33,377 nucleotides of DNA from Cypionkella sp. Lineage in GTDB: Bacteria > Pseudomonadota > Alphaproteobacteria > Rhodobacterales > Rhodobacteraceae. The notes under the pieces are model-generated. The model saw only the letters and a program-made list of their open reading frames with translations, searched no databases and was not told the DNA's origin. The DNA is taken from the NCBI RefSeq assembly GCF_030652235.1, contig NZ_JAUSBA010000065.1, positions 1-33,377 of the forward strand, read 5' to 3'. Shown in pieces: positions 21,484-33,237 of the stretch. The position numbers and the translations under genes are program-made. Numbering within the stretch: position 1 is the stretch's first letter; every line of letters begins with the position of its first letter.

Positions 21484-21603
21484 TGCCATTCCCAGCCTCT
21501 GGCGGTGCCCTATTGTTCCACCTCATCAGCCAACTCTACGAAAAAAACATCACTCATCATCACAACCAATAACAGCTTCGCCGAATGGGGCACGGTCTTC
21601 GGC

Positions 21604-21642
21604 CCCTCTCGGCGTTTACAAGCAAACGCCTGCCGGGCAATG
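21604..21642 (+). repeat. Hairpin insertion element, copy A (39 bp)
   Basis: CCCTCTC, stem GGCGTTT, loop ACAAGC, stem AAACGCC, then TGCCGGGCAA-TG. It separates codons that are adjacent in normal istB genes (VFG-DAK). The length, 39 bases, keeps the frame and adds 13 residues. Shares its ends with copies at 32531-32569 and 32609-32645 but has a different stem. Confidence 0.8.
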
Positions 21643-21754
21643 GATGCCAAGATGACCACCGCGCTCCTCGACCGCATCACCCACCACTGCGACATTCTCG
21701 AAACCGAAAATGACTCCTGGCGCTTCAAACAGCGCAAGAAAGTCAGCGCCCAAA

Positions 21755-21798
21755 CTGATCAATATTGAACGCTGTTACCTGTTCAATATTCAACGCTG
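21755..21798. repeat. IS21-type terminal repeats
   Basis: CTGATCAATATTGAACGCTG (21755-21774) and CTGTTCAATATTCAACGCTG (21779-21798) differ at two places and lie 24 bases apart, just before the ending TTGACA (21800-21805). IS21 elements carry such repeated transposase sites at their ends. Confidence 0.65.
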
Positions 21799-21988
21799 AT
21801 TGACAGTCATGGCGAGGCTGCCAGACGCCCGCCTAGCCATTTTAATCACCCCGGGGGCGAAGTTGATGCGATGACCCCACAGCGCGCGCTCTGGCAGCCT
21901 GCCAGGTATGAGCCCGGAGACGCCATTCGGTGGCGTTTTGAGGTGGCGACAACGCCGTGCAGTGCTTTTACATACGGGTTAGCCAATC

Positions 21989-22097
21989 GACACTTACGCC
22001 CCATTGCCGCCGCTCGAGAGGGTGCCGCCGCTGCGGCGCGGCGTTCCCTAAAGCGTTCGCTCATCATGGAACGCCGCATTTTAAGCTGATAAGTGTC
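21989..22097. repeat. Nested inverted repeats, 109 bp
   Basis: Outer pair GACACTTA (21989-21996) and TAAGTGTC (22090-22097); inner pair GCGGCGTTCC (22038-22047) and GGAACGCCGC (22068-22077) with a 20-base spacer. It sits 33 bases beyond the end of rlmF. It could be a non-autonomous mobile element or a structured RNA or terminator; no gene is seen in 21806-22129. Confidence 0.5.
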
Positions 22098-22129
22098 TGC
22101 GCGTTGGCCTGTTGCTGAACCTGATCAGA

Positions 22130-23035
22130 CTAGAGTGATCTCTGCCGTTCTGGATAGTAAGTCCAAGCAATAAACCGACTGGTCTTCTGGCCTTGCGCCA
22201 TTTCGACAACCTTGAATTCGACAACCTTCGCTTCCTTCAGCAATCTGGAGAGTGGCTTGAGGCTGTCTTTCTTGGACACCAAGCAGGTGAACCACAGGCA
22301 CTGTTCGGCAAAATTCATGCTCTGCTCGATCATTCGGGCGATGAAGCCGATTTCACCACCTGGGCACCAGAGCTCGGCATTCTGGCCGCCAAAATTAAGT
22401 TCAGCAGAGTGGCCCTTACCAAGATTTCGCCACTTGCGCAGCGTGCCCTCTTGCGCCTGCGCAAGCGACGCATGAAACGGGGGATTGCAGAGGGTGACAT
22501 GGAAAATATCATCCGGGCCGACAACGCCTTCGAAAATATCCACCGCGTTGTTCTGACGTCTGAGCTCTATATTCAGCCTGTTTCGTTCGCAGATCTGCCG
22601 TGCTGATTTGATCGAGACCGGATCGATATCAACGCCTGTGAAGTCCCAACCATATTCATGCTGACCCGTCAGCGGATACACAAGGCTCGCACCCGTCCCG
22701 ATGTCCAGCGCCTTGATATCGGACCCATGCGGGATCTCTTGGTCATTACTTTCGGCAAGCAGATCCGCCAAGTAGTGAATATAATCAACACGCCCCGGGA
22801 TCGGGGGGCAGAGGTACGTGGCAGGAATATCCCAGAAATCAATCTCATAGTGGGTCATCAAGAGCGCTCGATTGAGCATACGGACCGCGTCCACGTCCTG
22901 AAAATTGATCGTCATCTGACCGCGCGGGTTTCTTGTCATGAATGCCTCCAGTTCGGGAGATTTCACGATTAGGCGTTCAAAGTCATACCCCTCTCGGTGT
23001 TGGTTGCGGGGGTGCAACATGAGTTTGACAGCCAT
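22130..23035 (-). CDS. rlmF: 23S rRNA (adenine-1618 N6)-methyltransferase RlmF
   Basis: 301 aa. RlmF adds a methyl group to N6 of A1618 of 23S rRNA using S-adenosylmethionine. Family marks: N-terminal LHPRNQHREGYDF, the region DFWDIPATYLCPPIPGRVDYIH, SAM-binding LDIGTGASLVYPL and the catalytic NPPF motif in VTLCNPPFHAS, then GGQNAELWCPGGEIGFI. AAGG lies eight bases before the ATG at 23035. Length and motifs are normal, so the gene looks functional, and it is flanked by broken DNA on both sides. It is a chromosomal-type housekeeping gene, which argues that this part is chromosome or chromid rather than a small plasmid. Confidence 0.93.
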   Translation of the reverse strand: MAVKLMLHPRNQHREGYDFERLIVKSPELEAFMTRNPRGQMTINFQDVDAVRMLNRALLMTHYEIDFWDIPATYLCPPIPGRVDYIHYLADLLAESNDQEIPHGSDIKALDIGTGASLVYPLTGQHEYGWDFTGVDIDPVSIKSARQICERNRLNIELRRQNNAVDIFEGVVGPDDIFHVTLCNPPFHASLAQAQEGTLRKWRNLGKGHSAELNFGGQNAELWCPGGEIGFIARMIEQSMNFAEQCLWFTCLVSKKDSLKPLSRLLKEAKVVEFKVVEMAQGQKTSRFIAWTYYPERQRSL

Positions 23036-23524
23036 GGGAAACCTTCTAGCCTATTGGTCTAGGCAACCTGCCCGACAAGGTATCAAGCTTAGAGCTTCCT
23101 AGCTGCCTAAGGAATACATGAACGGCCCAAAGCTGCCGGTTGGCCTCGATAGTGTTGCGAGGCGTTGCCTGCCAAAGCTGCCGCTCGAAAAACGGTGCAG
23201 CATTTCGCGGTCAGGTGGGGATGTGGCGCCTATAGCACGGGAGTGCCTTGCAGCAGAGGCAGCTCTGCGGCGCAGGTTTCCTCGGACGGCTTCGCTTGCC
23301 GTAGCACCAAGCGATGACACGGAACCCGCGACCTCGGGCCTTATCCAATTGACTCGCTTGCCCCGGTGCGTTGAACGGCGCGCAAGGTGCCGGGCACCTG
23401 CCGCATGCGGACGCAAGTCACGGTGGAACCCGGATCGCGACGACATCTTACCCTCGGAGCATTTCTCGTTGTGGTTAATGCAGGCTCCCATCAATATTTA
23501 AAGGCCTCACGAGAGCAGTGAGCA
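23036..23524. other. Intergenic, nothing recognised
   Basis: About 490 bp between two divergent genes. Long open frames exist on both strands only because of high GC; their translations are Arg/Ala/Ser-rich and resemble no protein. The rlmF promoter should lie near 23040-23110. Confidence 0.5.
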
Positions 23525-23920
23525 ATGTCTGTCCGGCAAGCTGTCCCTCAGGGCAATCCGTTTCTGACCGCCCCCATCGGGCGGCTGTTTTTATCGATCG
23601 CCCTTCCCATGGCAGTGGTCATGTCGATGGGTGGCATTCTGAACGTGGTCGATGGCGTCTTCGTCGGACGCTTCATCGGTGCCGAGGCACTGGCGGCAGT
23701 CAGCCTTGCCTTTCCGGCGGTGATGCTGATGTCTGCGCTGGCGATACTTCGGGCGGCGGCATGTCAAGCTCGCTGGCGCGATCTCTGGGCACGGGAGATC
23801 GCATCGCGGCGGCCCGGGTCTTTGCCGGGGCGCATGGTTTGGCGTTGTTGATTGCGGCTCTTGTGGTGTTGCTTTGAGCGGCCTTCGGCCGGGCGCTGCC
23901 TATCGGGTTGGCGGCAAGTC
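23525..23920 (+). pseudogene. N-terminal remnant of a MATE-family efflux gene
   Basis: The first 74 codons read as a MATE transporter N-terminus (NPFLTAPIGRLFLSIALPMAV, NVVDGVFVGRFIGAEALAAVSLAFP). Near 23745 the match jumps to another frame (SGGGMSSSLARSLGTGDRIAAARVF...), reaches a TGA at 23875-23877, and near 23885 jumps again (FGRALPIGLAA). With two frameshifts and the rest absent, the gene is dead. The ATG at 23525 has only a weak ribosome binding site. Confidence 0.8.
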
Positions 23921-23996
23921 GCCGAGACGACGTGGACCTAACCGCAGCGCGCTTGCGCTGTCTGCTGCGCGGACACGTCTGTGTTTCACAGAATCG

Positions 23997-24035
23997 TTGA
24001 AGTTTTGTTTTTCCCTACTTAACATATTTTAAGTA
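23997..24035 (+). promoter_or_regulatory. Promoter and palindromic operator of the puuR-like gene
   Basis: TTGAAG (23997-24002) and TAACAT (24020-24025) are 17 bases apart, a good sigma70-type promoter. TACTTAA (24016-24022) and TTAAGTA (24029-24035) form a perfect 7-bp inverted repeat with a 6-base spacer covering the -10 box, the place for a repressor such as the encoded Xre-cupin protein. Confidence 0.65.
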
Positions 24036-24050
24036 ATCTTGGAGCAGACG

Positions 24051-24695
24051 ATGGCAGCCCAACCAGATCAACCCATGACTCGCACCGATGAAGCGGAAAC
24101 CGTTCGCATCATGGCCGAGCGGCTGCGCCGTTTGCGCAAGGCCAACGGGCTGTCGCTGCGTCAACTGGCGGATGCCACGGGAACTTCGGCCAGCTTTCTC
24201 AGCCAACTGGAACGCGGGCTTAGCGGGGCGAGCACCTCGACCCTGATCCGTATCGCAAACAGTTTCGGAACAAGTATTTCCGAGCTATTTGCGTGTGCAG
24301 AAGGTGGCAAGGATCCTGTGCTGCGACGTCACATGCGGCCCACTTTACCGGTGACAAATGGTCAGCGCAAAATGTTGTTGTCGCGCCGCCCGCTGACCCA
24401 CTTTGAGACATACATCGCGGAATTTGACATGGGCGGCTCGAGTGGGGACGACGCTTACACCCATGGCGATAGCAACGAGATGATTTTGGTCCTACGCGGG
24501 CAGGTCCGGCTGGAGCTTGGCAGCGATAGCCATGATTTGGACGAAGGCGACAGCGTGGAATACGCAACATCGGTGCCGCACCGGGTGGTCAACATCGGCG
24601 ATGGGACGGCCGAAGTGCTGTTCATGATTTCTCCGCCCACATCAACTTCCAAATATGTGGACGAATTTCGAAACAAGGTCGGCGGGGCCGGCTGA
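24051..24695 (+). CDS. Xre-cupin transcriptional regulator (PuuR-like)
   Basis: 214 aa. An N-terminal helix-turn-helix (about residues 20-75: LRRLRKANGLSLRQLADATGTSASFLSQLERG) and a C-terminal cupin sensor (about 125-205: GDSNEMILVLRGQVRLELG, LDEGDSVEYATSVPHRVVN). This is the PuuR/SutR layout; PuuR represses putrescine-use genes and is released by putrescine. ATG at 24051 is preferred over a TTG at 24039 because GGAG lies at 24041-24044. It is first in an operon with polyamine-type transport and oxidation genes, 50 bases before the binding-protein gene. Confidence 0.9.
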   Translation: MAAQPDQPMTRTDEAETVRIMAERLRRLRKANGLSLRQLADATGTSASFLSQLERGLSGASTSTLIRIANSFGTSISELFACAEGGKDPVLRRHMRPTLPVTNGQRKMLLSRRPLTHFETYIAEFDMGGSSGDDAYTHGDSNEMILVLRGQVRLELGSDSHDLDEGDSVEYATSVPHRVVNIGDGTAEVLFMISPPTSTSKYVDEFRNKVGGAG

Positions 24696-24745
24696 TCTTG
24701 TAGCACAATGATGCACAGGCCAAAAACCAACCGGGAGGAAATACG

Positions 24746-25816
24746 ATGAAACACACCAGAACCCTTGGATTTGCTGCAGTGGCAGCAATCGGGATGGCAG
24801 GTGCCGCTTTTGCTGAAGGCGCTGTGGCGGGCGAGACCGCAGAAGGATCTCTTGCGGGCAAGACCCTAACCTTTGTCTCATATGGCGGGATTTTTCAGGA
24901 TGGCCAGCTTAAGGCGCTGCAGGATTTTGTTACAAAATCCGGCGTTACCTTGCTGTCTGACGGACCGACCGAAAATGCCAAGATCCAGGCTCAGGTCGAG
25001 GCCAAGAACGTGATGTGGGATGTCGTTGATACGGGTGACTTTACGCCGTTCGTGCACTGCGGCACGCTGTTCCAGAAACTTGACTTCACCAAGATCGACG
25101 TGTCAAAAATTCCGCTAGGACAGGTGGGCGAGTGCAGCGTTCCGGCGATGAATTACGCTGTTATGTTCCTGTATAACAAGGACAAATACAAGGACAACCC
25201 GCCGCAGAACTGGACTGACTTCTTCGATATCGAGAAATTCCCCGGCACCCGTGGTATTCCCGGTTATGCCGATCCTGAAGGCTATATGGTCGAGTTGGGC
25301 CTGCTGGCCGATGGAGTTCCGAAAGACCAGTTGTTTCCGGCAGACATTGACCGCGGGCTGAACAAATGGCGTTCGATCCGTGAAAATCTGGTGCCGTGGA
25401 CGACAGGAGCCGAAAGCCAGCAGATGCTTGAGTCTGGTGAGGCTGACATGGTTATGGTCTGGTCGGGCCGGGGCAAGGCGGCATTGGCCAATGGGGCAAA
25501 TTACGCGCCTGTCTGGCAAGACTGGATTGTCGTCAAGGACCAGCTTGCCATTCCGATCGGTGTCAAAGATACCGACGCATCTCATGCTCTGATCAATGCT
25601 TATCTGGGCAAACAAGCGCAAGAAGTGATGGCGCAAGAAACCTCATATTCTCCGATTAACGTCGATGCTCAGCCTAAAGTGGATCAGTTGACGGCGGAAT
25701 TCATGACCAATACTCCGGAAAAGCAGGCTATGGCTTACAACCAGAACGTCGAATTCTGGGTCGCTAACTATGAGACGCTCAGTGCCAAATGGGCTGAGTT
25801 CGTCGTGGGCAACTGA
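24746..25816 (+). CDS. Polyamine-type ABC transporter substrate-binding protein
   Basis: 356 aa. A signal peptide (MKHTRTLGFAAVAAIGMAGAAFA, cut after AFA) precedes a PotD/extracellular-solute-binding family 1-type body: LTFVSYGGIFQDGQLKAL, VMWDVVDTGDF, YNKDKYKDNPPQNWTDFFD, FPGTRGIPGYADP, and SGEADMVMVWSGR. Strong ribosome binding site GGAGG before the ATG. In this family aromatic and acidic residues line the pocket for polyamines or related amines; the exact ligand is not readable. It feeds the two permeases and ATPase downstream. Confidence 0.92.
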   Translation: MKHTRTLGFAAVAAIGMAGAAFAEGAVAGETAEGSLAGKTLTFVSYGGIFQDGQLKALQDFVTKSGVTLLSDGPTENAKIQAQVEAKNVMWDVVDTGDFTPFVHCGTLFQKLDFTKIDVSKIPLGQVGECSVPAMNYAVMFLYNKDKYKDNPPQNWTDFFDIEKFPGTRGIPGYADPEGYMVELGLLADGVPKDQLFPADIDRGLNKWRSIRENLVPWTTGAESQQMLESGEADMVMVWSGRGKAALANGANYAPVWQDWIVVKDQLAIPIGVKDTDASHALINAYLGKQAQEVMAQETSYSPINVDAQPKVDQLTAEFMTNTPEKQAMAYNQNVEFWVANYETLSAKWAEFVVGN

Positions 25817-25886
25817 TGCTTGTTGCGCCGGGGCTGCTGGTCCCGGCGTTCTTGTCAACGCTCGCTTGCGTCGCTGAAAGGCCATC

Positions 25887-26735
25887 ATGTCATCTAAACC
25901 TGCACCGCGCGCTTCCCGTGGGCCGCTTTACCTAACCCTGCCGGCACTTGCCGTTCTGGTTCTTGTAATGGCGGTGCCGCTTGGCGTGATTGTCTTACGC
26001 AGTTTCATGGAACCCGAGCCGGGTTTTGCAAACTATGTATGGTTCTTTCAGACCAAAGTGAACATCACGGTATTGCTGCGCACATTTTCCATTGCCTCCT
26101 GGGTGACCGTTTGCTGCGTGCTGGCGGCCTATCCATATGCCTTTGCGATGTCCGTTGCTGGACCGCGCCTTCGGCTGGCGCTTATCATGTGCGTGTTGGT
26201 GCCATTCTGGGTTTCAGGTGTGGTGAGAACGTTGGCGTGGGTGATCTTGTTGCAGGATTCCGGGGTTATCAATCGGGTTCTCTTGTCTATGGGGTTCGAG
26301 AAGGTGCGACTGATCCGAACTCAACTGGGCGTCACCATAGGTATGACACAAGTCCTGCTGCCTTTCATGATCATGCCGCTCTATGCCGTCATGCGCGGCA
26401 TTGACCTGCGGTTGTTGCAGGCGGCCCAGAGCCTTGGGGCGCATCCAATCAAGACCTTTTTCCAGATTTACCTGCCGCTTTCTCTGCCTGGGGTATTTGC
26501 CGGTGCGACAATCGTCTTCATCCTGGCGCTTGGGTTTTACATCACGCCGTTGCTGCTGGGTGGCCCGCAATCAACCATGCTGTCAACGCTGATCCAGCAA
26601 CAGGTCTTGTCCTTGCTGAATTGGGGACGGGGCGGGGCAATGGGTGTGGTGCTGCTGATCGTGACCTTTGGTGTTCTTGGCGCAGCCAGTCCGTTCATGC
26701 GGCGGAAATATCAGTTGAGCGGGGGCAGCCGATGA
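25887..26735 (+). CDS. ABC transporter permease (PotB-like)
   Basis: 282 aa, six hydrophobic helices. The cytoplasmic EAA-like loop is AAQSLGAHPIKTFFQIYLPLSLPGVF, the contact with the ATPase. The N-terminus is short and basic (MSSKPAPRASRGPLYLTLP). It overlaps the next permease by four bases (ATGA). The two permeases form the membrane channel of the type I importer. Confidence 0.92.
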   Translation: MSSKPAPRASRGPLYLTLPALAVLVLVMAVPLGVIVLRSFMEPEPGFANYVWFFQTKVNITVLLRTFSIASWVTVCCVLAAYPYAFAMSVAGPRLRLALIMCVLVPFWVSGVVRTLAWVILLQDSGVINRVLLSMGFEKVRLIRTQLGVTIGMTQVLLPFMIMPLYAVMRGIDLRLLQAAQSLGAHPIKTFFQIYLPLSLPGVFAGATIVFILALGFYITPLLLGGPQSTMLSTLIQQQVLSLLNWGRGGAMGVVLLIVTFGVLGAASPFMRRKYQLSGGSR

Positions 26736-27520
26736 ACTTAAATCTGCCCCGCCTGTTGTTGAGCTTGACCTGTTTGTTGATTGCAATTTGGCTAGTGGCA
26801 CCCACGTTTGTCATCATCCCGATGTCTTTTGCAGGCAAGAAATCGTTGGTCTTCCCGCCGCAAGGGTTTTCGCTGCAGTGGTATGAGAACTTTTTCACCA
26901 ATCCGCAGTGGATCGGCAGCCTGATAGTGTCGGCAAAGTTAGCAGTGATGGTTTCCGTAGTTGCAACCGTGATCGGCACCATGGCAGCCATCGGGATAGA
27001 ACGCATGAAGGGTCGCGGGGCTGGCATTATCCGCGCCGTGCTGATCACGCCGATGATCGTTCCAGGCGTGGTGCTGGCCGTGGGCATTTACGCGGTCTAT
27101 CTGGATACACGGCTTGTCGGCACTTGGACTGGCTATGTGCTGGCGCACACGCTTCTGGCGATCCCGTTTGTGGTGATTGCTGTCGGCGCAAATCTGGCCG
27201 TCTTCGATGAGCGTCTGGAAACGGCGGCAGCTAGCCTTGGGGCCTCGCGGCTAACCACGTTCTTCACCATCACTTTGCCGCTGATCCTGCCGGGGATTCT
27301 GTCGGGCGCGCTTTTTGCGTTCGTCACATCTTTTGATGAGGTGATCGTGTCGCTCTTCATCACCAGCCCGCAGTTGAAAACCCTGCCGGTTCAGATCTTT
27401 TCATCCATGACCCGCGACGCCGATCCGACGGTTGCGGCGGTGGGGTCGCTTATCTTCCTTGCTACGTCACTGATCATCGGGCTGGGACTAATCTTCGGAA
27501 TGCGGGGGCGCAGGGTATGA
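26732..27520 (+). CDS. ABC transporter permease (PotC-like)
   Basis: 262 aa with six helices and the EAA-like loop AAASLGASRLTTFFTITLPLILPGIL. The N-terminal region PMSFAGKKSLVFPPQGFSLQWYENFF is typical of PotC/PotI-type permeases. The start ATG at 26732 overlaps the stop of the preceding gene (ATGA); the frame stays open upstream but inside that gene. It overlaps the ATPase start by four bases. Confidence 0.92.
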   Translation: MNLNLPRLLLSLTCLLIAIWLVAPTFVIIPMSFAGKKSLVFPPQGFSLQWYENFFTNPQWIGSLIVSAKLAVMVSVVATVIGTMAAIGIERMKGRGAGIIRAVLITPMIVPGVVLAVGIYAVYLDTRLVGTWTGYVLAHTLLAIPFVVIAVGANLAVFDERLETAAASLGASRLTTFFTITLPLILPGILSGALFAFVTSFDEVIVSLFITSPQLKTLPVQIFSSMTRDADPTVAAVGSLIFLATSLIIGLGLIFGMRGRRV

Positions 27521-28635
27521 CGCTTAACACAAGCACAAAAGGCGCCGCCGTCGACATTCGCGGGGTCAGCAAATTCTACGGCAGTTTTACTGCTTTGGAT
27601 GATATCAGCCTGCGGGTCGAGCCGGGTGAGTTCATGTCGTTCCTAGGCCCCTCAGGATCGGGCAAGACCACGACGTTGAACCTGATTGCCGGATTCACTG
27701 ACCTCAGCGCCGGTGAAATCCGCTTGGGAGAACAGTCAATTGGCCATGTCCCGGCGCATAAGCGTAACATCGGCGTGGTGTTTCAGCATTATGCGCTGTT
27801 CCCGCACATGAGCGTGGCGCAGAACGTGGCCTATCCGCTGAAGCAACGCGGCATCGCCAAGGCCGACCGCACCAGGGCCGTTGATCAGGCCTTGCAAAAG
27901 GTGCAACTGGATAAATTCGCGCATCGCTACCCCAGCGAGCTTTCGGGCGGCCAGCAGCAGCGTGTGGCCTTAGCACGCGCGATGGTGTTCACCCCGTCGC
28001 TGTTGCTGATGGATGAGCCGCTGGGTGCGCTGGACAAGAAACTGCGCGAGGTGCTGCAACTGGAAATTCGCCGCATCCACCGAGAGCTCGGTTCGACCTT
28101 TGTCTATGTGACCCATGATCAGGAAGAGGCACTGGTGCTGTCGGATCGGATCGCAGTGTTCAACAAGGGCCGTATTGAGCAGGTCGGCAGCGGGCATCAG
28201 CTTTACACCCGACCCGAGACATTGTTCGTGGGCCAGTTCATAGGCGAAAGCTCGGTGCTGCGGGGCGCGCATAGTGCAGGGGGGGCCGAAACCGCACTTA
28301 CGATTGCGGGGGCGACTTTGGTGGCACCCGGACAGGCCAGGGCCGATGCTCCTCATGTCATTCTGCTGCGCCCTGAGAGCGTTATGGTTCAGGCCTCCGG
28401 CACAGGTCCGAAGGACGGAATGACCAACATTCTCGGCGGCACAGTGCGCGAAATGCTCTATCTGGGGGCCGCGATGAAATACGAAGTGACGCTGGCGGAT
28501 GGCAACCACGTCATCGCCCGCACCCCCACCCAAGACGAGCCTTTTGCCATCGGCAGTGCCGTGGAACTGGCCTGGAACCCTAAGGATGGAACGCTTTTGG
28601 CCGATGACGGCTCGACTGCGGGACATGAAGGATAA
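27517..28635 (+). CDS. ABC transporter ATP-binding protein (PotA-like)
   Basis: 372 aa. Walker A GPSGSGKTT, Q-loop VVFQHYALFPHM, signature LSGGQQQRVALARAM, Walker B LLLMDEPLGALDKK and the H-loop in YVTHDQEEAL are complete. The C-terminal part (about 250-372, LRPESVMV, YLGAAMKYEVTLADG) is a TOBE domain. ATG at 27517 overlaps the upstream permease stop (ATGA). Four-base overlaps through three genes give fixed stoichiometry. Confidence 0.93.
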   Translation: MTLNTSTKGAAVDIRGVSKFYGSFTALDDISLRVEPGEFMSFLGPSGSGKTTTLNLIAGFTDLSAGEIRLGEQSIGHVPAHKRNIGVVFQHYALFPHMSVAQNVAYPLKQRGIAKADRTRAVDQALQKVQLDKFAHRYPSELSGGQQQRVALARAMVFTPSLLLMDEPLGALDKKLREVLQLEIRRIHRELGSTFVYVTHDQEEALVLSDRIAVFNKGRIEQVGSGHQLYTRPETLFVGQFIGESSVLRGAHSAGGAETALTIAGATLVAPGQARADAPHVILLRPESVMVQASGTGPKDGMTNILGGTVREMLYLGAAMKYEVTLADGNHVIARTPTQDEPFAIGSAVELAWNPKDGTLLADDGSTAGHEG

Positions 28636-28639
28636 AGTG

Positions 28640-30028
28640 ATGGACGTGAAGAAAAACGGCGATGTATCTTTCTGGTATGCCGATATTGGCGGTCTCCCCG
28701 AGTATAGAGCGGCATTGCCCGGCGATATCGACGTCGATGTTTGCATCATTGGGGCGGGGTTTACCGGGCTGTGGACGGCCTACTATCTGAAAAAATCGAA
28801 CCCCGACCTGTCGATTGCGATCATTGAGAAAGAGTTCGCGGGCTACGGCGCATCCGGCCGCAATGGCGGCTGGTGTTCGGGTGGATTTTCGTGGAGCCGG
28901 TCAAAGTATCTCTCGACCGGAACCCGCGAAGGCGTGATCGACTTTGAGCGCCAGCTGCGCGGCACAGTGGAAGAGATTATCCGCGTCTGCGAAGCCGAAG
29001 GCATCGATGCAAACATTCGGCGCACCGATTGCCTGACCTTTGCCTGCACCCCCGCTCAGATGCAGCGGCTGCGCGTCGATCAGGCAGATGACATGGCATG
29101 GGAAGTGCCAGCCGAGCGCAGCCATCTGATCGGTGCTGCCGAAGCCGCTGAACGCATCCGCATCAAGGATGTGCAGGGCGCTTTGGTGACGGGAGGCGTG
29201 GCACGGGTGCAACCGGCCAAACTGGTGCGTGGTTTGGCCGAAGTGGTAACCCGTAAGGGCGCCACAATCTATGAGCAGACCACCGTCACCGGGATCAGCA
29301 AGGGCCGGGTCGCTACCAACCGCGGAACGGTTACTGCGCACCGCATCGTGCGCGCCACGGAAGGCTTTACCCATGGTATCTCGGGGAACGAGCGTGAGTG
29401 GATACCGCTAAACAGCGCCATCGTGGTGACCGAACCGGTCCCAGATGCGATGTGGGACGAACTGGGCTGGAGTGGCTATGAGGTGTTTGGCGATGCGTCG
29501 CACGCGTATTGCTACGCGCAGCGCACGCAAGATAACCGTATCGCCATGGGTGGGCGCGGGGTGCCGTATCGCTTCGGCTCCAAAACCGATGTGAACGGCG
29601 AGACCCAGGCTGAAACCGTCGAAAAGTTGAAGGGCATTCTGTATCGGATGCTGCCCCAGACTCGCAGTCTAAAGCTGGACCACGCCTGGTGTGGTGTTCT
29701 GGGTGTGCCGCGCGACTGGTGCACGACCGCGGGTCTTGATCCGCAGACTGGCATTGCCTGGGCGGGTGGCTATGTCGGCCTCGGGGTGTCCACGTCGAAC
29801 TTCTCGGGTCAAACTCTAGCGGATCTGGTGCTGCAAAAACAGACCGAGCGGACGACCCTGCCTTGGGTCAACCGCAAGCCGCGCAAATGGGAGGTCGAGC
29901 CGTTTCGCTGGCTGGGCGTTCACGGCATGTATTGGCTGTATAACTTGGCAGACCGGCGCGAAGCGGCAAGTGGCGGGCAGCGCACATCGCGGCTTGCCAC
30001 GCTGGCAAATCGCATAACTGGCCGTTGA
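28640..30028 (+). CDS. FAD-dependent amine oxidoreductase (PuuB/DAO-like)
   Basis: 462 aa. The FAD-binding Rossmann motif is VCIIGAGFTGLWTAYYL, followed by IIEKEFAGYGASGRNGGWCSGGF, typical of the DAO group that includes gamma-glutamylputrescine oxidase PuuB. The C-terminal half has MGGRGVPYRFGS and WAGGYVGLGVSTSNFSGQTLADL, the second FAD contact. Start ATG at 28640 has GAAGGA eight bases upstream; another ATG at 28625 inside the ATPase gene is possible. It likely oxidises the amine brought in by the ABC importer. No glutamate-putrescine ligase (PuuA) gene is present in the window. Confidence 0.9.
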   Translation: MDVKKNGDVSFWYADIGGLPEYRAALPGDIDVDVCIIGAGFTGLWTAYYLKKSNPDLSIAIIEKEFAGYGASGRNGGWCSGGFSWSRSKYLSTGTREGVIDFERQLRGTVEEIIRVCEAEGIDANIRRTDCLTFACTPAQMQRLRVDQADDMAWEVPAERSHLIGAAEAAERIRIKDVQGALVTGGVARVQPAKLVRGLAEVVTRKGATIYEQTTVTGISKGRVATNRGTVTAHRIVRATEGFTHGISGNEREWIPLNSAIVVTEPVPDAMWDELGWSGYEVFGDASHAYCYAQRTQDNRIAMGGRGVPYRFGSKTDVNGETQAETVEKLKGILYRMLPQTRSLKLDHAWCGVLGVPRDWCTTAGLDPQTGIAWAGGYVGLGVSTSNFSGQTLADLVLQKQTERTTLPWVNRKPRKWEVEPFRWLGVHGMYWLYNLADRREAASGGQRTSRLATLANRITGR

Positions 30029-30074
30029 AAGCGGCGCAACAGCCTGAACCGCGTCCGCAAAAATTGGAGAACAC

Positions 30075-30440
30075 ATGATCGACCTATCCGTTTTTACCGG
30101 TCTCGCCGGGATCGACATTGGCACGCTTGCAGACAAGCCCACCGCGCTCACGCCGGGCCAGAAAGAGGCGGCAACTTCGATCTGGCAATCGCCTGATGGC
30201 GCACTGGATATCGGGGTCTGGGAGTGCTCGCCCGGCAGCTTTACCGCAGACCGATCAGCGGCGGCCGAGTTCTGCTACTTCTTGCAAGGCAAGATCGTGA
30301 TGACCCACTTGGACGGCACCCGGCGCGAGTTGGGGCCGGGCGATGCCATCATGTTGCCGCGTGGCTGGAAAGGCACGTGGGAGATTCTCGAGCATACCCG
30401 CAAAATCTACGTGTTCTTGGCAGATCGACTTCATGGATAG
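30075..30440 (+). CDS. Cupin-domain protein (DUF861/Cupin_3 type)
   Basis: 121 aa. A single cupin barrel with SIWQSPDGALDIGVWECSPGSF, then AEFCYFLQGKIVMTHLDG, LGPGDAIMLPRGWKGTWEI, matching the DUF861 (Cupin_3) pattern, which lacks the usual His cluster of metal cupins. GGAGA precedes the ATG at 30075. It is the last gene of the operon, 46 bases after the oxidase. Such small cupins often follow PuuB-like oxidases; the function is unknown. Confidence 0.85.
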   Translation: MIDLSVFTGLAGIDIGTLADKPTALTPGQKEAATSIWQSPDGALDIGVWECSPGSFTADRSAAAEFCYFLQGKIVMTHLDGTRRELGPGDAIMLPRGWKGTWEILEHTRKIYVFLADRLHG

Positions 30441-30606
30441 TTAACTGTTGTTGCCCTGCGAACAAGGCGCCGCTTATCCACGGACTTTTCCGCTACATAC
30501 TATTCGTCGACAGTTGCAGACTTAGGGGAGCTTTGGCACCTAGTCAGCCGCAGCAACGAATACACCCTCTAGGCAGATCGATGATTTTTCAGGACTTCTG
30601 CGGCTT
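30441..30606. other. Intergenic before IS3 element 1
   Basis: Nothing convincing. On the minus strand a short open reading may continue across the IS3 element into 31883 onwards, but no family is recognised. Confidence 0.4.
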
Positions 30607-30648
30607 ACCTGAGCTACTCCCCAACTCTTGGACAGTTTTCGGGCTGAG

Positions 30649-31503
30649 TTAAGCTACTGCCTGCACCTGCTGATCGGTTTGGGTTGCGTTGAAGTAGACC
30701 ACGGCGGGCGGTTGACCGCCATGGGCGGCATGGGGCCGCAGATGGTTGTAGAAAGTGATCCAGCGTCCGACGCCAGCCTTGGCCTGTGATCCGGTTTCCC
30801 AGGCGTGCAGATAGACGCATTCATACTTCAGCGACCGCCAGAGACGTTCAATGAAGATGTTGTCGAGGTAGCGGGCTTTGCCGTCCATGGAGATCTTGGT
30901 CTTTGCACGTTTCAGCCGGTCGGTCCAATCGAAGGACGTGAACTGCGACCCCTGATCGGTATTCATGATTTCGGGCGGGCCGAACTTGTGGATGGCCTCG
31001 TTCAGTGCCTCAACGCAGAACTCGGCCTCCAGCGTGTTCGATATCCGCCAGGCCAGCACCTTGCGGGTTAACCAGTCCATGATGGCCACCAGATAGAGAA
31101 AGCCTTTACGCATGGGCAGGTAAGTGATGTCGGCGCACCAGACTTGGTTCGGCCGATCAATCCGGAGCCCGCCCAGCAGGTAGGGATAGGTCTTGTGGCC
31201 CTTCGCGGGCTTGCTGGTGTTGGGTTTTTGGTAGATCGGCATCAAACGCATAAGTCGCATCAGCCGCCGGATGCGCTTTTCGTTCACGTCATGGCCTTCG
31301 TTCTGCAGGTGCCATGTCATCTGCCGGACACCGTAAAACGGCGTGTCCAGGAACTGCTTGTCGACCAGCAACATGAGGTCAAGGTTCATCGTCGTCTCAC
31401 CCTGCGGCGCGTAATAGAACGACGATCGCGAGATCGAGAGCAACTGGCACTGCGCCCCGACCGACAGCTTGGGATGGGTTCTTTCGATCATGCCCCACCT
31501 CAC
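30649..31503 (-). CDS. IS3-family transposase orfB (DDE integrase)
   Basis: 284 aa. The integrase core carries Asp in VWCADITYLPM, Asp in IMNTDQGSQFTS and Glu in DNIFIERLWRSLKYE, the DDE triad with IS3 spacing. The N-terminal part is HTH_21-like (RTHPKLSVGAQCQLLSISRSSFYY). It starts with GTG at 31503 overlapping the orfA stop (GTGA). Catalysis usually needs an OrfAB fusion by frameshifting; here a four-base overlap may instead give coupling. Confidence 0.92.
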   Translation of the reverse strand: MRWGMIERTHPKLSVGAQCQLLSISRSSFYYAPQGETTMNLDLMLLVDKQFLDTPFYGVRQMTWHLQNEGHDVNEKRIRRLMRLMRLMPIYQKPNTSKPAKGHKTYPYLLGGLRIDRPNQVWCADITYLPMRKGFLYLVAIMDWLTRKVLAWRISNTLEAEFCVEALNEAIHKFGPPEIMNTDQGSQFTSFDWTDRLKRAKTKISMDGKARYLDNIFIERLWRSLKYECVYLHAWETGSQAKAGVGRWITFYNHLRPHAAHGGQPPAVVYFNATQTDQQVQAVA

Positions 31504-31799
31504 TTCCCGATCCAGGGCTTGAGCTTTCGTGACAAAAAATCGTTGGCGACGGCCAGTTCTCCGATCTTTGCATGCAGATCACGGACCGTATCCTCGGCAA
31601 TCTCGGCTGTGGCCGCAGCCTGACCGCCACGCTCGAAAATGCCCGCAGCACCTTCCAGCAGTGCCTTCTTCCACTGATGGATCATCGTTGGATGGACCTC
31701 ATAAGCGGTCGCCAATTCCGACACGGTGCGCTCGCCCTTCAGCGCCTCCAACGCAACACGCGCCTTGAACGCCGCGTCATGGTTCCTGCGTTTCGACAT
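31500..31799 (-). CDS. IS3-family transposase orfA
   Basis: 99 aa. The HTH_Tnp_1-type domain KARVALEALKGERTVSELATAYEVHPTMIHQWKKALLEG is followed by a leucine-zipper-like helix (EDTVRDLHAKIGELAVANDFLSRKL). Starts with ATG at 31799. It binds the IS ends and precedes orfB. Confidence 0.92.
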   Translation of the reverse strand: MSKRRNHDAAFKARVALEALKGERTVSELATAYEVHPTMIHQWKKALLEGAAGIFERGGQAAATAEIAEDTVRDLHAKIGELAVANDFLSRKLKPWIGK

Positions 31800-31882
31800 G
31801 CTCTGATCTCCTCGTCTTGGGGATCAGCAGACCTCAGATCGTAGCTTCCGTCACTGTCCGATTTTCGGGGGGTAGCTCAACC

Positions 31883-32165
31883 AGACGCATGATCAGTAGG
31901 TGACGCAGCAGTCGTAAACATCGTAACTCCCGCACCGCAGGGATGCACCGGCGCGGTGCATGTGCAGCCATTCCTAGGGGCATTGGGATCGGGAGAGTGG
32001 CTTTGAAATTTCTGAAATGGTTGCGGGCAATGAGCTCGTTGTCTAGGCCTTAGGCTACTCTAACTAGTTCGCCTTGAACAATGCATTCAGGCTAATGTGA
32101 TGGCCTGATACTGGCGATCCGGGTGGTAAACTGCGTTCAAAATGGCGACGACAATGCAGATAAGC
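31883..32165. other. Intergenic between IS3 elements
   Basis: About 280 bp with a 7-bp hairpin (ATGCACC at 31943-31949, GGTGCAT at 31955-31961). On the minus strand a reading containing AVRELRCLRLLRHLLIMRLV is open up to the IS3 element 1 border and may be the remnant of a small gene that the element interrupted; no family is recognised. Confidence 0.4.
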
Positions 32166-32188
32166 TGAACCGCCCCGGGTTTACCGGA

Positions 32189-32213
32189 GGGCAAAACTCT
32201 CGGAGAATTGCCC
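32189..32213 (+). promoter_or_regulatory. Hairpin in the leader of IS3 element 2
   Basis: GGGCAA (32189-32194) and TTGCCC (32208-32213), with CTC/GAG pairing inside, form a symmetric 25-base hairpin directly before the orfA ATG at 32217. It would hide a GGAG at 32202-32205. It may limit translation, or may be another insertion. Confidence 0.4.
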
Positions 32214-32216
32214 GTT

Positions 32217-32597
32217 ATGGAACAGACATCAAAGCAGAAGACCTCGAAGCCGTATTCACCTGAGTTCCGCGAACATGCGGTGCGGTTGGCGATGGAACAC
32301 CGCGATGATTATCAAAGCGAAGCTGCGGCGCTGACAGCGATCGCGGGTAAATTGGGCTGTTCGCCGGACAGCCTTCGCGTTTGGATGCGACAGGTCCAGC
32401 GTGACGGCGGCGAACGGCCGGGACCTACCGGCGCTGAGATCGCGCGGATCAAAGAGCTGGAACGCGAGAACCGGGAACTGCGGCAGGCCAATGAGATCCT
32501 GCGCAAAGCTTCAGCGTATTTTGCCCAGGCCCCTCTCGCGGTTTAAAGACAAACCGCTGCCGGGCAGCGGGAGCTCGACCGCCCATTTCGCAAATGA
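32217..32597 (+). pseudogene. IS3 element 2 orfA, interrupted by hairpin copy B
   Basis: Reads MEQTSKQKTSKPYSPEFREH, a helix-turn-helix (IAGKLGCSPDSLRVWMRQVQ) and a coiled coil ending NEILRKASAYFAQA. The family continues ELDRPFRK-stop; here that tail lies at 32571-32597 after a 39-bp insertion. The insertion brings an in-frame TAA at 32544-32546, so the product ends early as AQAPLAV. The start is ATG 32217; an upstream TTG at 32208 is unlikely. Confidence 0.85.
32531..32569 (+). repeat. Hairpin insertion element, copy B (39 bp)
   Basis: CCCTCTC, stem GCGGTTT, loop AAAGAC, stem AAACCGC, then TGCCGGGCAG-CG. It separates AYFAQA from ELDRPFRK of orfA. It has the same length and ends as copy A, with compensating changes on both sides of the stem. 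Confidence 0.8.
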
Positions 32598-32608
32598 TGG
32601 ATTTCATT

Positions 32609-32645
32609 CGTTGCCCGGCAGCGCATTTTTACATGCGTGAGAGGG
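32609..32645 (-). repeat. Hairpin insertion element, copy C (37 bp, inverted)
   Basis: Read on the minus strand: CCCTCTC, stem ACGCAT, loop GTAAAA, stem ATGCGC, then TGCCGGGCAA-CG. The ends match copies A and B; the stem is one pair shorter with an A-C mismatch at its base. It lies between ATGGATTTCATT and GAGGAAAGC of orfB and shifts the frame. Confidence 0.78.
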
Positions 32646-33117
32646 GAGGAAAGCCGAGAGGCGCACGGGGTCGAGCCGATCTGCAGGGCGCTGCAGTTTG
32701 CCCCTTCCACCTTTTATGACCGGCGGGCGATCATGCGTGATCCTGACCGGGCCTCGGCTCGGGCGAAGTCGGATGCAGCCCTGAGCGTCCAGATCGACGC
32801 GGGCTGGGATGCCAACCGCAAACTCTATGGCGCGCGGAAGATCTGGCATGTTTTGCGACGGCAGGGCGAAGACGCAGCCCGCTGCACAGTGGAACGTTTG
32901 ATGCGCCGTCTGGGCATCAGGGGCGTGGTCCGTGGCAAGAAGGTCATTACGACCAATCCTGACACATCGCTGCCATGCCCGGACGACAAGGTGAACCGCC
33001 TGTTCAAGGCTGATCGACCGAACAAGCTGTTGGTTTCAGATTTTACCTACGTGCCCACATGGTCGGGAACAGTCTATGTGGCGTTCGTGATCGATGTGTT
33101 TGCACGACGGATCGTGG

Positions 33118-33155
33118 CCCTGCGTGATTTGCACGCAAATCCCTTCCGGGTAACA
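33118..33155 (+). repeat. Diverged hairpin insertion, copy D (38 bp)
   Basis: CCCTGCGT, stem GATTTGC, loop AC, stem GCAAATC, then CCTTCCGGGTAACA. It splits RRIV from GWRAS of orfB. CCCT at the start and CCGGG-Y-AA at the end resemble copies A to C, but the rest differs, so it may be a related subfamily. Confidence 0.6.
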
Positions 33156-33237
33156 GCTGGCGCGCCTCGACATCGATGAAGACCCAGTTCGTGCTTGATG
33201 CGCTGGATCAGGCGATCTGGCAAAGAAAGACACCGGA

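Follow-up and report, generated by a model that had tools for sequence, protein, structure and literature searches.

A family of mobile hairpins 34–45 nt long, which lie mostly inside the genes of other mobile elements, is found in Rhodobacterales, many of which are marine. We analysed this family starting from a stretch of 33,377 nucleotides of Cypionkella sp. (assembly GCF_030652235.1, contig NZ_JAUSBA010000065.1; hereafter the window). An earlier note, made from the letters alone, had described three 37–39 bp hairpins there, and their positions, sequences, stems and ends are as it described them. It had also proposed that they belong to a family of short inserted hairpins whose stems covary; further copies, gapless junctions and compensating changes now bear this out. 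We put at about 0.55 the probability that the hairpin is a non-coding mobile element that moves as a folded single DNA strand, served in trans by an enzyme of the HUH type or similar to it.

In many cases the insertion itself is visible, with its borders and target motif, sites that are empty, the strand that folds and a base that may act as a guide. These details make the mechanism testable and give markers for finding the enzyme. Moreover, a layer of parasites inside insertion sequences (ISs) would bear on the annotation of transposase pseudogenes and on estimates of IS activity in Rhodobacterales.

Hairpin anatomy, covariation and distribution

Read on the strand that appears to fold, the element is 5'-CRYTGCCCGGCA-stem-loop-stem-GAGAGGG-3', or in short form 5'-CRYTGCCCGGCA-hairpin-GAGAGGG-3'; the ends are fixed and the centres vary. 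A foot of CCC paired with GGG is followed by an internal loop, in which GGCA lies opposite GAGA, and by the variable stem above it. There are two main classes. One is mainly 37–39 nt long and has no bulge. The other, mainly 41–43 nt, has a single T left unpaired in the 3' arm, three pairs up from the base of the stem. We scored this bulge in 83 of 161 elements with a strong stem, and the bulged T is present in at least 90% of 43 sequences of the 41-nt class. Longer, cargo-bearing versions were considered and rejected: none with a 35–65 nt centre occurs in 80 carrier genomes.

The stems vary in a way that preserves pairing. In the 37-nt class (35 of 35 distinct sequences) 98.9% of cells are paired, and 68 cells have changed on both sides and still pair. 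The covariation score is 0.557, compared with 0.174 after shuffling, and none of 500 shuffles reaches any of these three values; the counts of pairs and of pair types are reached by 3 and 4 of 500 shuffles. For the 41-nt class the corresponding values, from 43 of its 68 distinct sequences, are 97.5% paired and 78 changes on both sides that still pair, with a score of 0.472 against 0.110, and again no shuffle among 500 reaches any of them. The covariation is lost when the partner is slid by one to three columns. Shuffle controls, both of the pattern and of the compensating changes, rule against chance palindromes. In the window the pattern CCCTCTC-N-TGCCGGGCA has exactly three matches (21604, 32531 and, on the minus strand, 32612–32645), with a chance expectation of 0.00 from 100 shuffles. 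On its folded (minus) strand the element at 21604 reads CATTGCCCGGCA-GGCGTTTGCTTGTAAACGCC-GAGAGGG.

The imperfections of the stem are unevenly shared between the strands. Across the 161 elements, the CCCTCTC strand has 57 A.C or C.A mismatches and 13 G.T or T.G pairs; the wobble pairs therefore lie on the other strand. The third stem of the window is an example. Its A-C mismatch on the CCCTCTC strand is a G.T pair on the folded strand. Among triloops, 83 of 132 are GNA when read on the folded strand, and none when read on the other. C-GNA-G loops form very stable DNA hairpins. RNA-model energies are lower for the folded strand in 118 of 138 comparisons. Judged from sequence, the G.T asymmetry and the GNA triloops point to one folded strand. 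The suggestion that structure is needed is thus upheld by the compensating changes and sharpened, by wobble asymmetry, triloops and energies, to a single strand.

The genome from which the window comes holds 11 copies with these ends. Within the family Rhodobacteraceae the pattern matches 102 of 295 genomes, some of them by chance and without a stem, while the reversed pattern matched 11 genomes once each. A stricter pattern, applied to a draw of 240 genomes from the class, matched three: the genome of the window, one other family member, and one of 237 genomes outside the family, which has three copies. The commonest form matches 97 of 72,556 plasmids; among the matches listed (60 of the 97 records) we take the genera to be Rhodobacterales, as far as we recognised them. 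Plasmids of Dinoroseobacter shibae and Ruegeria pomeroyi are among those with a match. On viral contigs 27 stretches match the pattern, some by chance. We began from 197 pattern matches in 186 loci and dropped 36 without a strong stem by the rule used, of which some are degenerate true copies and others chance matches in unrelated taxa. Loci L141, L164, L165 and L175 were excluded as coding coincidence. A known Rfam family was also rejected, there being no match at gathering score in the window. When four loci were compared with Rfam at E<=10, ALIL, the IS3 frameshift signal, was the sole family to match over an element. This pseudoknot match, at L030:1483-1638, spans the inserted element.

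Insertion sites, target and host genes

Relatives of the host ISs that lack the segments reveal the insertions directly, and they reject the idea that the hairpin is a native IS part. An element-free copy of the IS3 in the window (G000:C34:3495-4193) joins exactly at the ends of both perfect elements and lacks a fourth, decayed one (33118–33155) that the earlier note had missed. Insertion was exact, with no target duplication and no base lost, and the two hairpins do split otherwise adjacent codons, as had been claimed. As for the segment at 21604, the IstB frame without it aligns gaplessly to a homologue (71% identity). A further empty IS3 site, with no base more or less, is found on Leisingera thetidis plasmid pBMJM1_5; the same element occupies it in Leisingera sp. 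NJS201, Phaeobacter inhibens S4Sm and P. gallaeciensis P11. The element at 32531–32569 recurs at the same site, with the same stem arms, in a genome of the same genus (G247, locus L030). Three IS3 copies (L290, L296 and L298) share one element at the same site, with one base different in L290, and L297 is empty. L297 is a close relative of one of the occupied copies, yet empty, which may reflect loss, recombination or repeated insertion.

We assembled a larger junction set of 290 elements in 202 loci, including degenerate elements and repeated copies of the same IS from one genome. After removal of the element, 219 junctions are spanned by a homologous protein, and 209 of these are gapless within five residues (95 of 113 in a first, smaller set). 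Taken with the empty sites, the gapless junctions therefore indicate that insertion as a rule proceeds without duplication, loss or a shared core. The element length is not a multiple of three in 185 of the 219. In GC-rich DNA the length of the open frame across the joined flanks has no discriminating power: 123 of 141 reach 120 codons whether the element is kept or removed.

The target has a recognizable motif. On the folded strand it reads YCATC^G, the caret marking the insertion point (n=180), with C at −1 in 77%, T at −2 in 63%, A at −3 in 55%, C at −4 in 58%, a pyrimidine at −5 in 81% and G at +1 in 77%. Conservation is one-sided, with little beyond +1. Base 2 of the element covaries with target position −2, A going with T and G with C (88 T-A and 26 C-G, versus 26 T-G and 14 C-A; Fisher p=3.7e-6 overall and 1.5e-4 in the unbulged class).

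Most hosts are themselves mobile. By homology to proteins spanning other elements, rather than by annotation, 155 of 226 non-redundant elements lie in IS-like DNA, a count that probably includes a few phage methylase genes. When one flanking frame of each of 148 elements was scanned with NCBIfam, the matches were IS3 (45), IS481 (28), IS5 models (at most 21 each), IS1182 (10), IS21 (7) and others, with overlaps. Part of the 71 unclassified elements (107 of 190 candidate frames) gave further transposases, together with one ornithine cyclodeaminase, one TraG and two RelE. Three frames of the first set match DNA methylase and presumably belong to the viral contigs L163, L174 and L178. On these three contigs a putative cytosine DNA methylase gene has been hit; the position is shared by two of them and is close by in the other.

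The elements also cluster. Some loci carry several, up to four per IS, and of 59 elements beyond the first in their locus, 56 are no more than 1.5 kb away from it (about 0.97 Mb of sequence). Eighteen homologous sites hold an element in two or more loci, and the stems are unrelated at no fewer than five of these sites, which supports repeated insertion. Orientation relative to the host gene is 42:32 in the curated set (p=0.30) and 132:87 in the set with repeated copies. IS genes would be favoured because insertions there are tolerated and because ISs spread the hairpin to other replicons and hosts; the mechanism itself may also prefer IS genes.

The elements of the window and their hosts are collected in Table 1, where the borders of the three perfect elements include the trailing RYG. 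The decayed element has mutated ends and has lost one base, and the orfB frame is kept when it is omitted. With all three elements omitted, orfB of this IS3 is otherwise open as far as it extends. The host at 21604 looks like a truncated, frameshifted IS remnant; its remnant and IS1182 labels were assigned by eye.

Table 1. Hairpin elements of the window and the ISs that hold them
Feature	Position	Strand	Context
Hairpin element, 39 bp	21604..21642	−	Within istB (IS21) remnant; homologue aligns without gap when element omitted
Hairpin element, 39 bp	32531..32569	−	Near orfA 3' end, IS3-family IS; empty site in G000:C34
Hairpin element, 37 bp	32609..32645	+ (opposite orientation)	Near orfB start, same IS3; empty site in G000:C34
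Decayed hairpin element, 38 nt	33118..33155	−	orfB of same IS3; absent from element-free copy
Host IS3-family orfA/orfB	32217..33233	+	Homology to other copy stops at about 33233
Host C-terminal istB (IS21) remnant	21501..21768	+	Beside IS1182-like fragment; separate frameshift

Two neighbours were noted by eye. About 400 bp from the element-bearing IS3, at 30649–31799 on the minus strand, lies an IS3-family-like orfA/orfB pair that looks open and is element-free. Positions 24746–30440 hold an apparent polyamine-type ABC transporter operon with an oxidoreductase and a cupin.

Mechanism, helper and fate of the host gene

In the mechanism that we favour, a trans-acting enzyme of the HUH type (IS200/IS605 or TnpA-REP), or one working alike, would bind the hairpin 5'-CRYTG-CCC-GGCA-(stem)-GAGA-GGG-3', whose stem often has a T bulging from its 3' side, and would cut at both ends of the element. 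The target would be chosen by pairing of RYTG, which adjoins the hairpin foot on its 5' side, with the target bases immediately 5' of the cut; the excised strand would then be pasted into the target. An HUH-like mechanism is favoured because the covariation of base 2 with position −2 resembles the guide pairing of IS200/IS605 and TnpA-REP. In the consulted part of PMC8266576, the cut site of IS200/IS605 enzymes and of at least one TnpA-REP is selected through base pairing with the nucleotides directly 5' of the hairpin.

The element presumably needs a helper in trans, and we looked for one among known families. Y1_Tnp has a match in 17 of 102 carriers, as against 13 of 193 non-carriers (p=0.014); the link is weak and could be due to a common burden of mobile DNA. 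Y2_Tnp is found in 7 of 16 carriers and 2 of 14 non-carriers, and RVT_1 in 6 of 16 and 5 of 14. Neither Y1 nor Y2 has a match in G013, a carrier of two contigs. Because none of the three occurs in all carriers tested, Y1, Y2 and reverse transcriptase (RT) were rejected as obligate helpers. Near the elements, 57 protein clusters are common to at least three loci, 18 of them at median distance zero from an element; these clusters are unannotated, and a linked helper among them is possible. The helper may belong to a family outside the Y1, Y2 and RT models, may be a visitor on a plasmid or phage, or may have been lost.

Several results weigh against a folded DNA strand moved by an HUH-like enzyme. 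Y1_Tnp has no match in the genome of the window or in 85 of the 102 carriers, and Y2_Tnp none in 9 of the 16. DNA-model energies favour the folded strand in only 150 of 230 cases, with 77 opposite. IS608-type elements favour the lagging strand, and local GC skew gave no replication-strand bias here (61:52; n=113 loci of 4–14 kb, with weak power). Targets of IS200/IS605 are strict tetranucleotides, and the motif here is degenerate. In the bulged class alone the covariation of base 2 with −2 has p=0.21 (n=91). Finally, two sites are less exact. Compared with the empty IS3 of Paracoccus marcusii pCP157_01, Pseudosulfitobacter pseudonitzschiae shows one base in addition to the element; in Phaeobacter inhibens, one site out of three lacks a base that an empty relative has.

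Other ways of moving must be set beside this. It is unlikely, in our view, that an enzyme of no described family moves a bare hairpin of 34–45 nt living mostly in mobile-element genes, with the bases next to the hairpin reading the target, and that the hairpin is tolerated since it leaves or is skipped, so that the host IS jumps with up to four of them. Less likely again is that the elements are REP (repetitive extragenic palindromic) sequences of the GTAG type moved by the RAYT (Y1) transposases of their hosts. Size, irregular hairpin and strand asymmetry all suit this idea, and carriers make up 17 of 30 Y1-positive but 85 of 265 Y1-negative genomes (p=0.014). In locus L301 (genome G089) a Y1 gene (1501–1860) lies between an element and a degenerate, inverted copy (902–942 and 2013–2049). 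This is the only such case among 16 Y1 loci, however; 14 show no element in the sequence examined and L310 has a weak match. Besides the many carriers without a Y1_Tnp match, there is no GTAG before the stem, and the elements are mainly inside genes. We consider it very unlikely that a structured RNA of 34–45 nt is reverse-spliced or RT-copied into DNA in the manner of a group II intron. The lack of target duplication and the strand-asymmetric fold with wobble pairs would fit such a route. Yet RVT_1 has no match in the genome of the window or in 10 of the 16 carriers tested, the 42:32 orientation in the curated set is no significant preference, and Rfam, as noted, offers no family. Known self-splicing introns, moreover, are far longer than 34–45 nt.

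The evidence on what becomes of the host gene conflicts, and we lean towards inactivation with mobilization in trans. It is doubtful, though part of the data points this way, that the elements are tolerated or removed, by skipping at the RNA level or by precise excision of DNA, so that the host transposase would keep working, as happens with introns or eliminated sequences. In G013 an IS3 of 1385 bp (L221:9006-10390) holds four elements, two in each orientation, in six full copies that are 98.5–99.9% alike. We found no full-length element-free copy there, one 318-bp end fragment being element-free, and both reading frames are open when the four elements are omitted. Three other ISs with three elements each have no stop (L157, L210 and L134). 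Only 12 of 38 unique changes in the IS3 of the window, with its three elements (one decayed), alter the protein, compared with about 70% expected without selection, as calculated for the G013 IS3. Nor do stops rise with decay: there are 76 in 18963 codons where all element ends are intact and 23 in 6916 where an end is mutated, a test that the control of element-free genes weakens. That control gives 3.78 stops per 1000 codons in element-bearing IS genes against 0.77 in element-free ones of the same loci (123 and 22 genes). The 12 of 38 may predate the insertions; the value for the element-free copy is lower (4 of 22), and that for L030, with one element, is 9 of 31. The six G013 copies differ by 12 amino-acid and 3 silent changes, as without selection. 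G055 has four copies of an IS that carries two elements and in-frame stops, with no full-length element-free one. These copies multiplied despite their stops; transposition in trans therefore suffices to explain such copies. The two orientations within one gene also speak against RNA splicing. The excess of stops, and the placing of most copies in transposase genes, would suit hairpins kept by selection as host tools for knocking out transposases. We find that hardly credible, because repeat insertions into the same IS copy (the 56 of 59 within 1.5 kb) add no benefit.

Comparison with known systems

No description of this hairpin family was found in the open-licence literature searched, and several known systems share some of its features. 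Miniature inverted-repeat transposable elements (MITEs) have terminal inverted repeats and a target duplication, and the hairpin has neither. Group II introns and retroelements depend on a genomic RT, which, as described above, only some carriers have. Integron attC sites are alike in their selected bottom strand, unpaired bases and variable palindromic centre between fixed boxes; they differ in having a GTT/AAC core and a cassette, both absent here.

The likeness to IS200/IS605 lies in the lack of target duplication, a one-sided target at the 5' end and, over all elements though not in the bulged class alone, guide-like covariation. IS608 hairpins also have a bulged T on the 3' side, as in our bulged class. 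The flank, by contrast, is degenerate here and G is favoured on the 3' side too. Whereas IS200/IS605 elements have two hairpin ends around a TnpA Y1 gene, the present element is a single hairpin and most of its carriers lack Y1.

REPs of the GTAG type, and the REPINs, share with the element an irregular stem and what its predicted fold asymmetry suggests is a strand-specific folded single strand. According to the part of PMC8266576 consulted, the bases 5' of their hairpin can act as a guide. GTAG REPs, however, have GTAG 5' of the palindrome, where the present element has GGCA before the stem (invariant in the 35 sequences, nearly so in the 43) and RYTG before the foot. Their RAYT gene is flanked by the repeat, as here in 1 of 16 Y1 loci, and there with one flank degenerate. 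REPs also lie between genes, and the elements here within IS genes.

The earlier note had likened the layout to the palindromic elements of Rickettsia (RPEs), which are short palindromes within protein genes of an alphaproteobacterium. The layout does agree. The in-frame character does not: RPEs are often in frame in likely functional proteins (PMC3733652, in the part consulted), whereas the length here is divisible by three in 34 of 219 and the hosts are mostly transposases.

Of the groups described so far, the CGTC-tagged REPs of alphaproteobacteria come closest. Like the present elements they are small alphaproteobacterial hairpins without a dedicated transposase, and we set the two apart by description, unaligned. 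In the sections consulted (PMC3733652; Di Nocera et al. 2013), these REPs have an unpaired CGTC (also TGTC or CCTC) at one end, stems of 8–9 bp starting with AT pairs, mostly a CCA tail, and no dedicated transposase; how REP-like hairpins without RAYT spread is left open in that part of PMC3733652. Here the first pair of the stem is G-C or G.T in 33 of 35 and 41 of 43 sequences, the 3' end is GAGAGGG and the 5' end is CRYTGCCCGGCA. A sequence YC(A/G)TC does precede our element, but it is target DNA; as a lead, the CGTC tag of those REPs might also derive from the target. Overall, the element works like a REP or a one-ended relic of IS200/IS605, while departing from what defines a GTAG REP, an RPE or a MITE.

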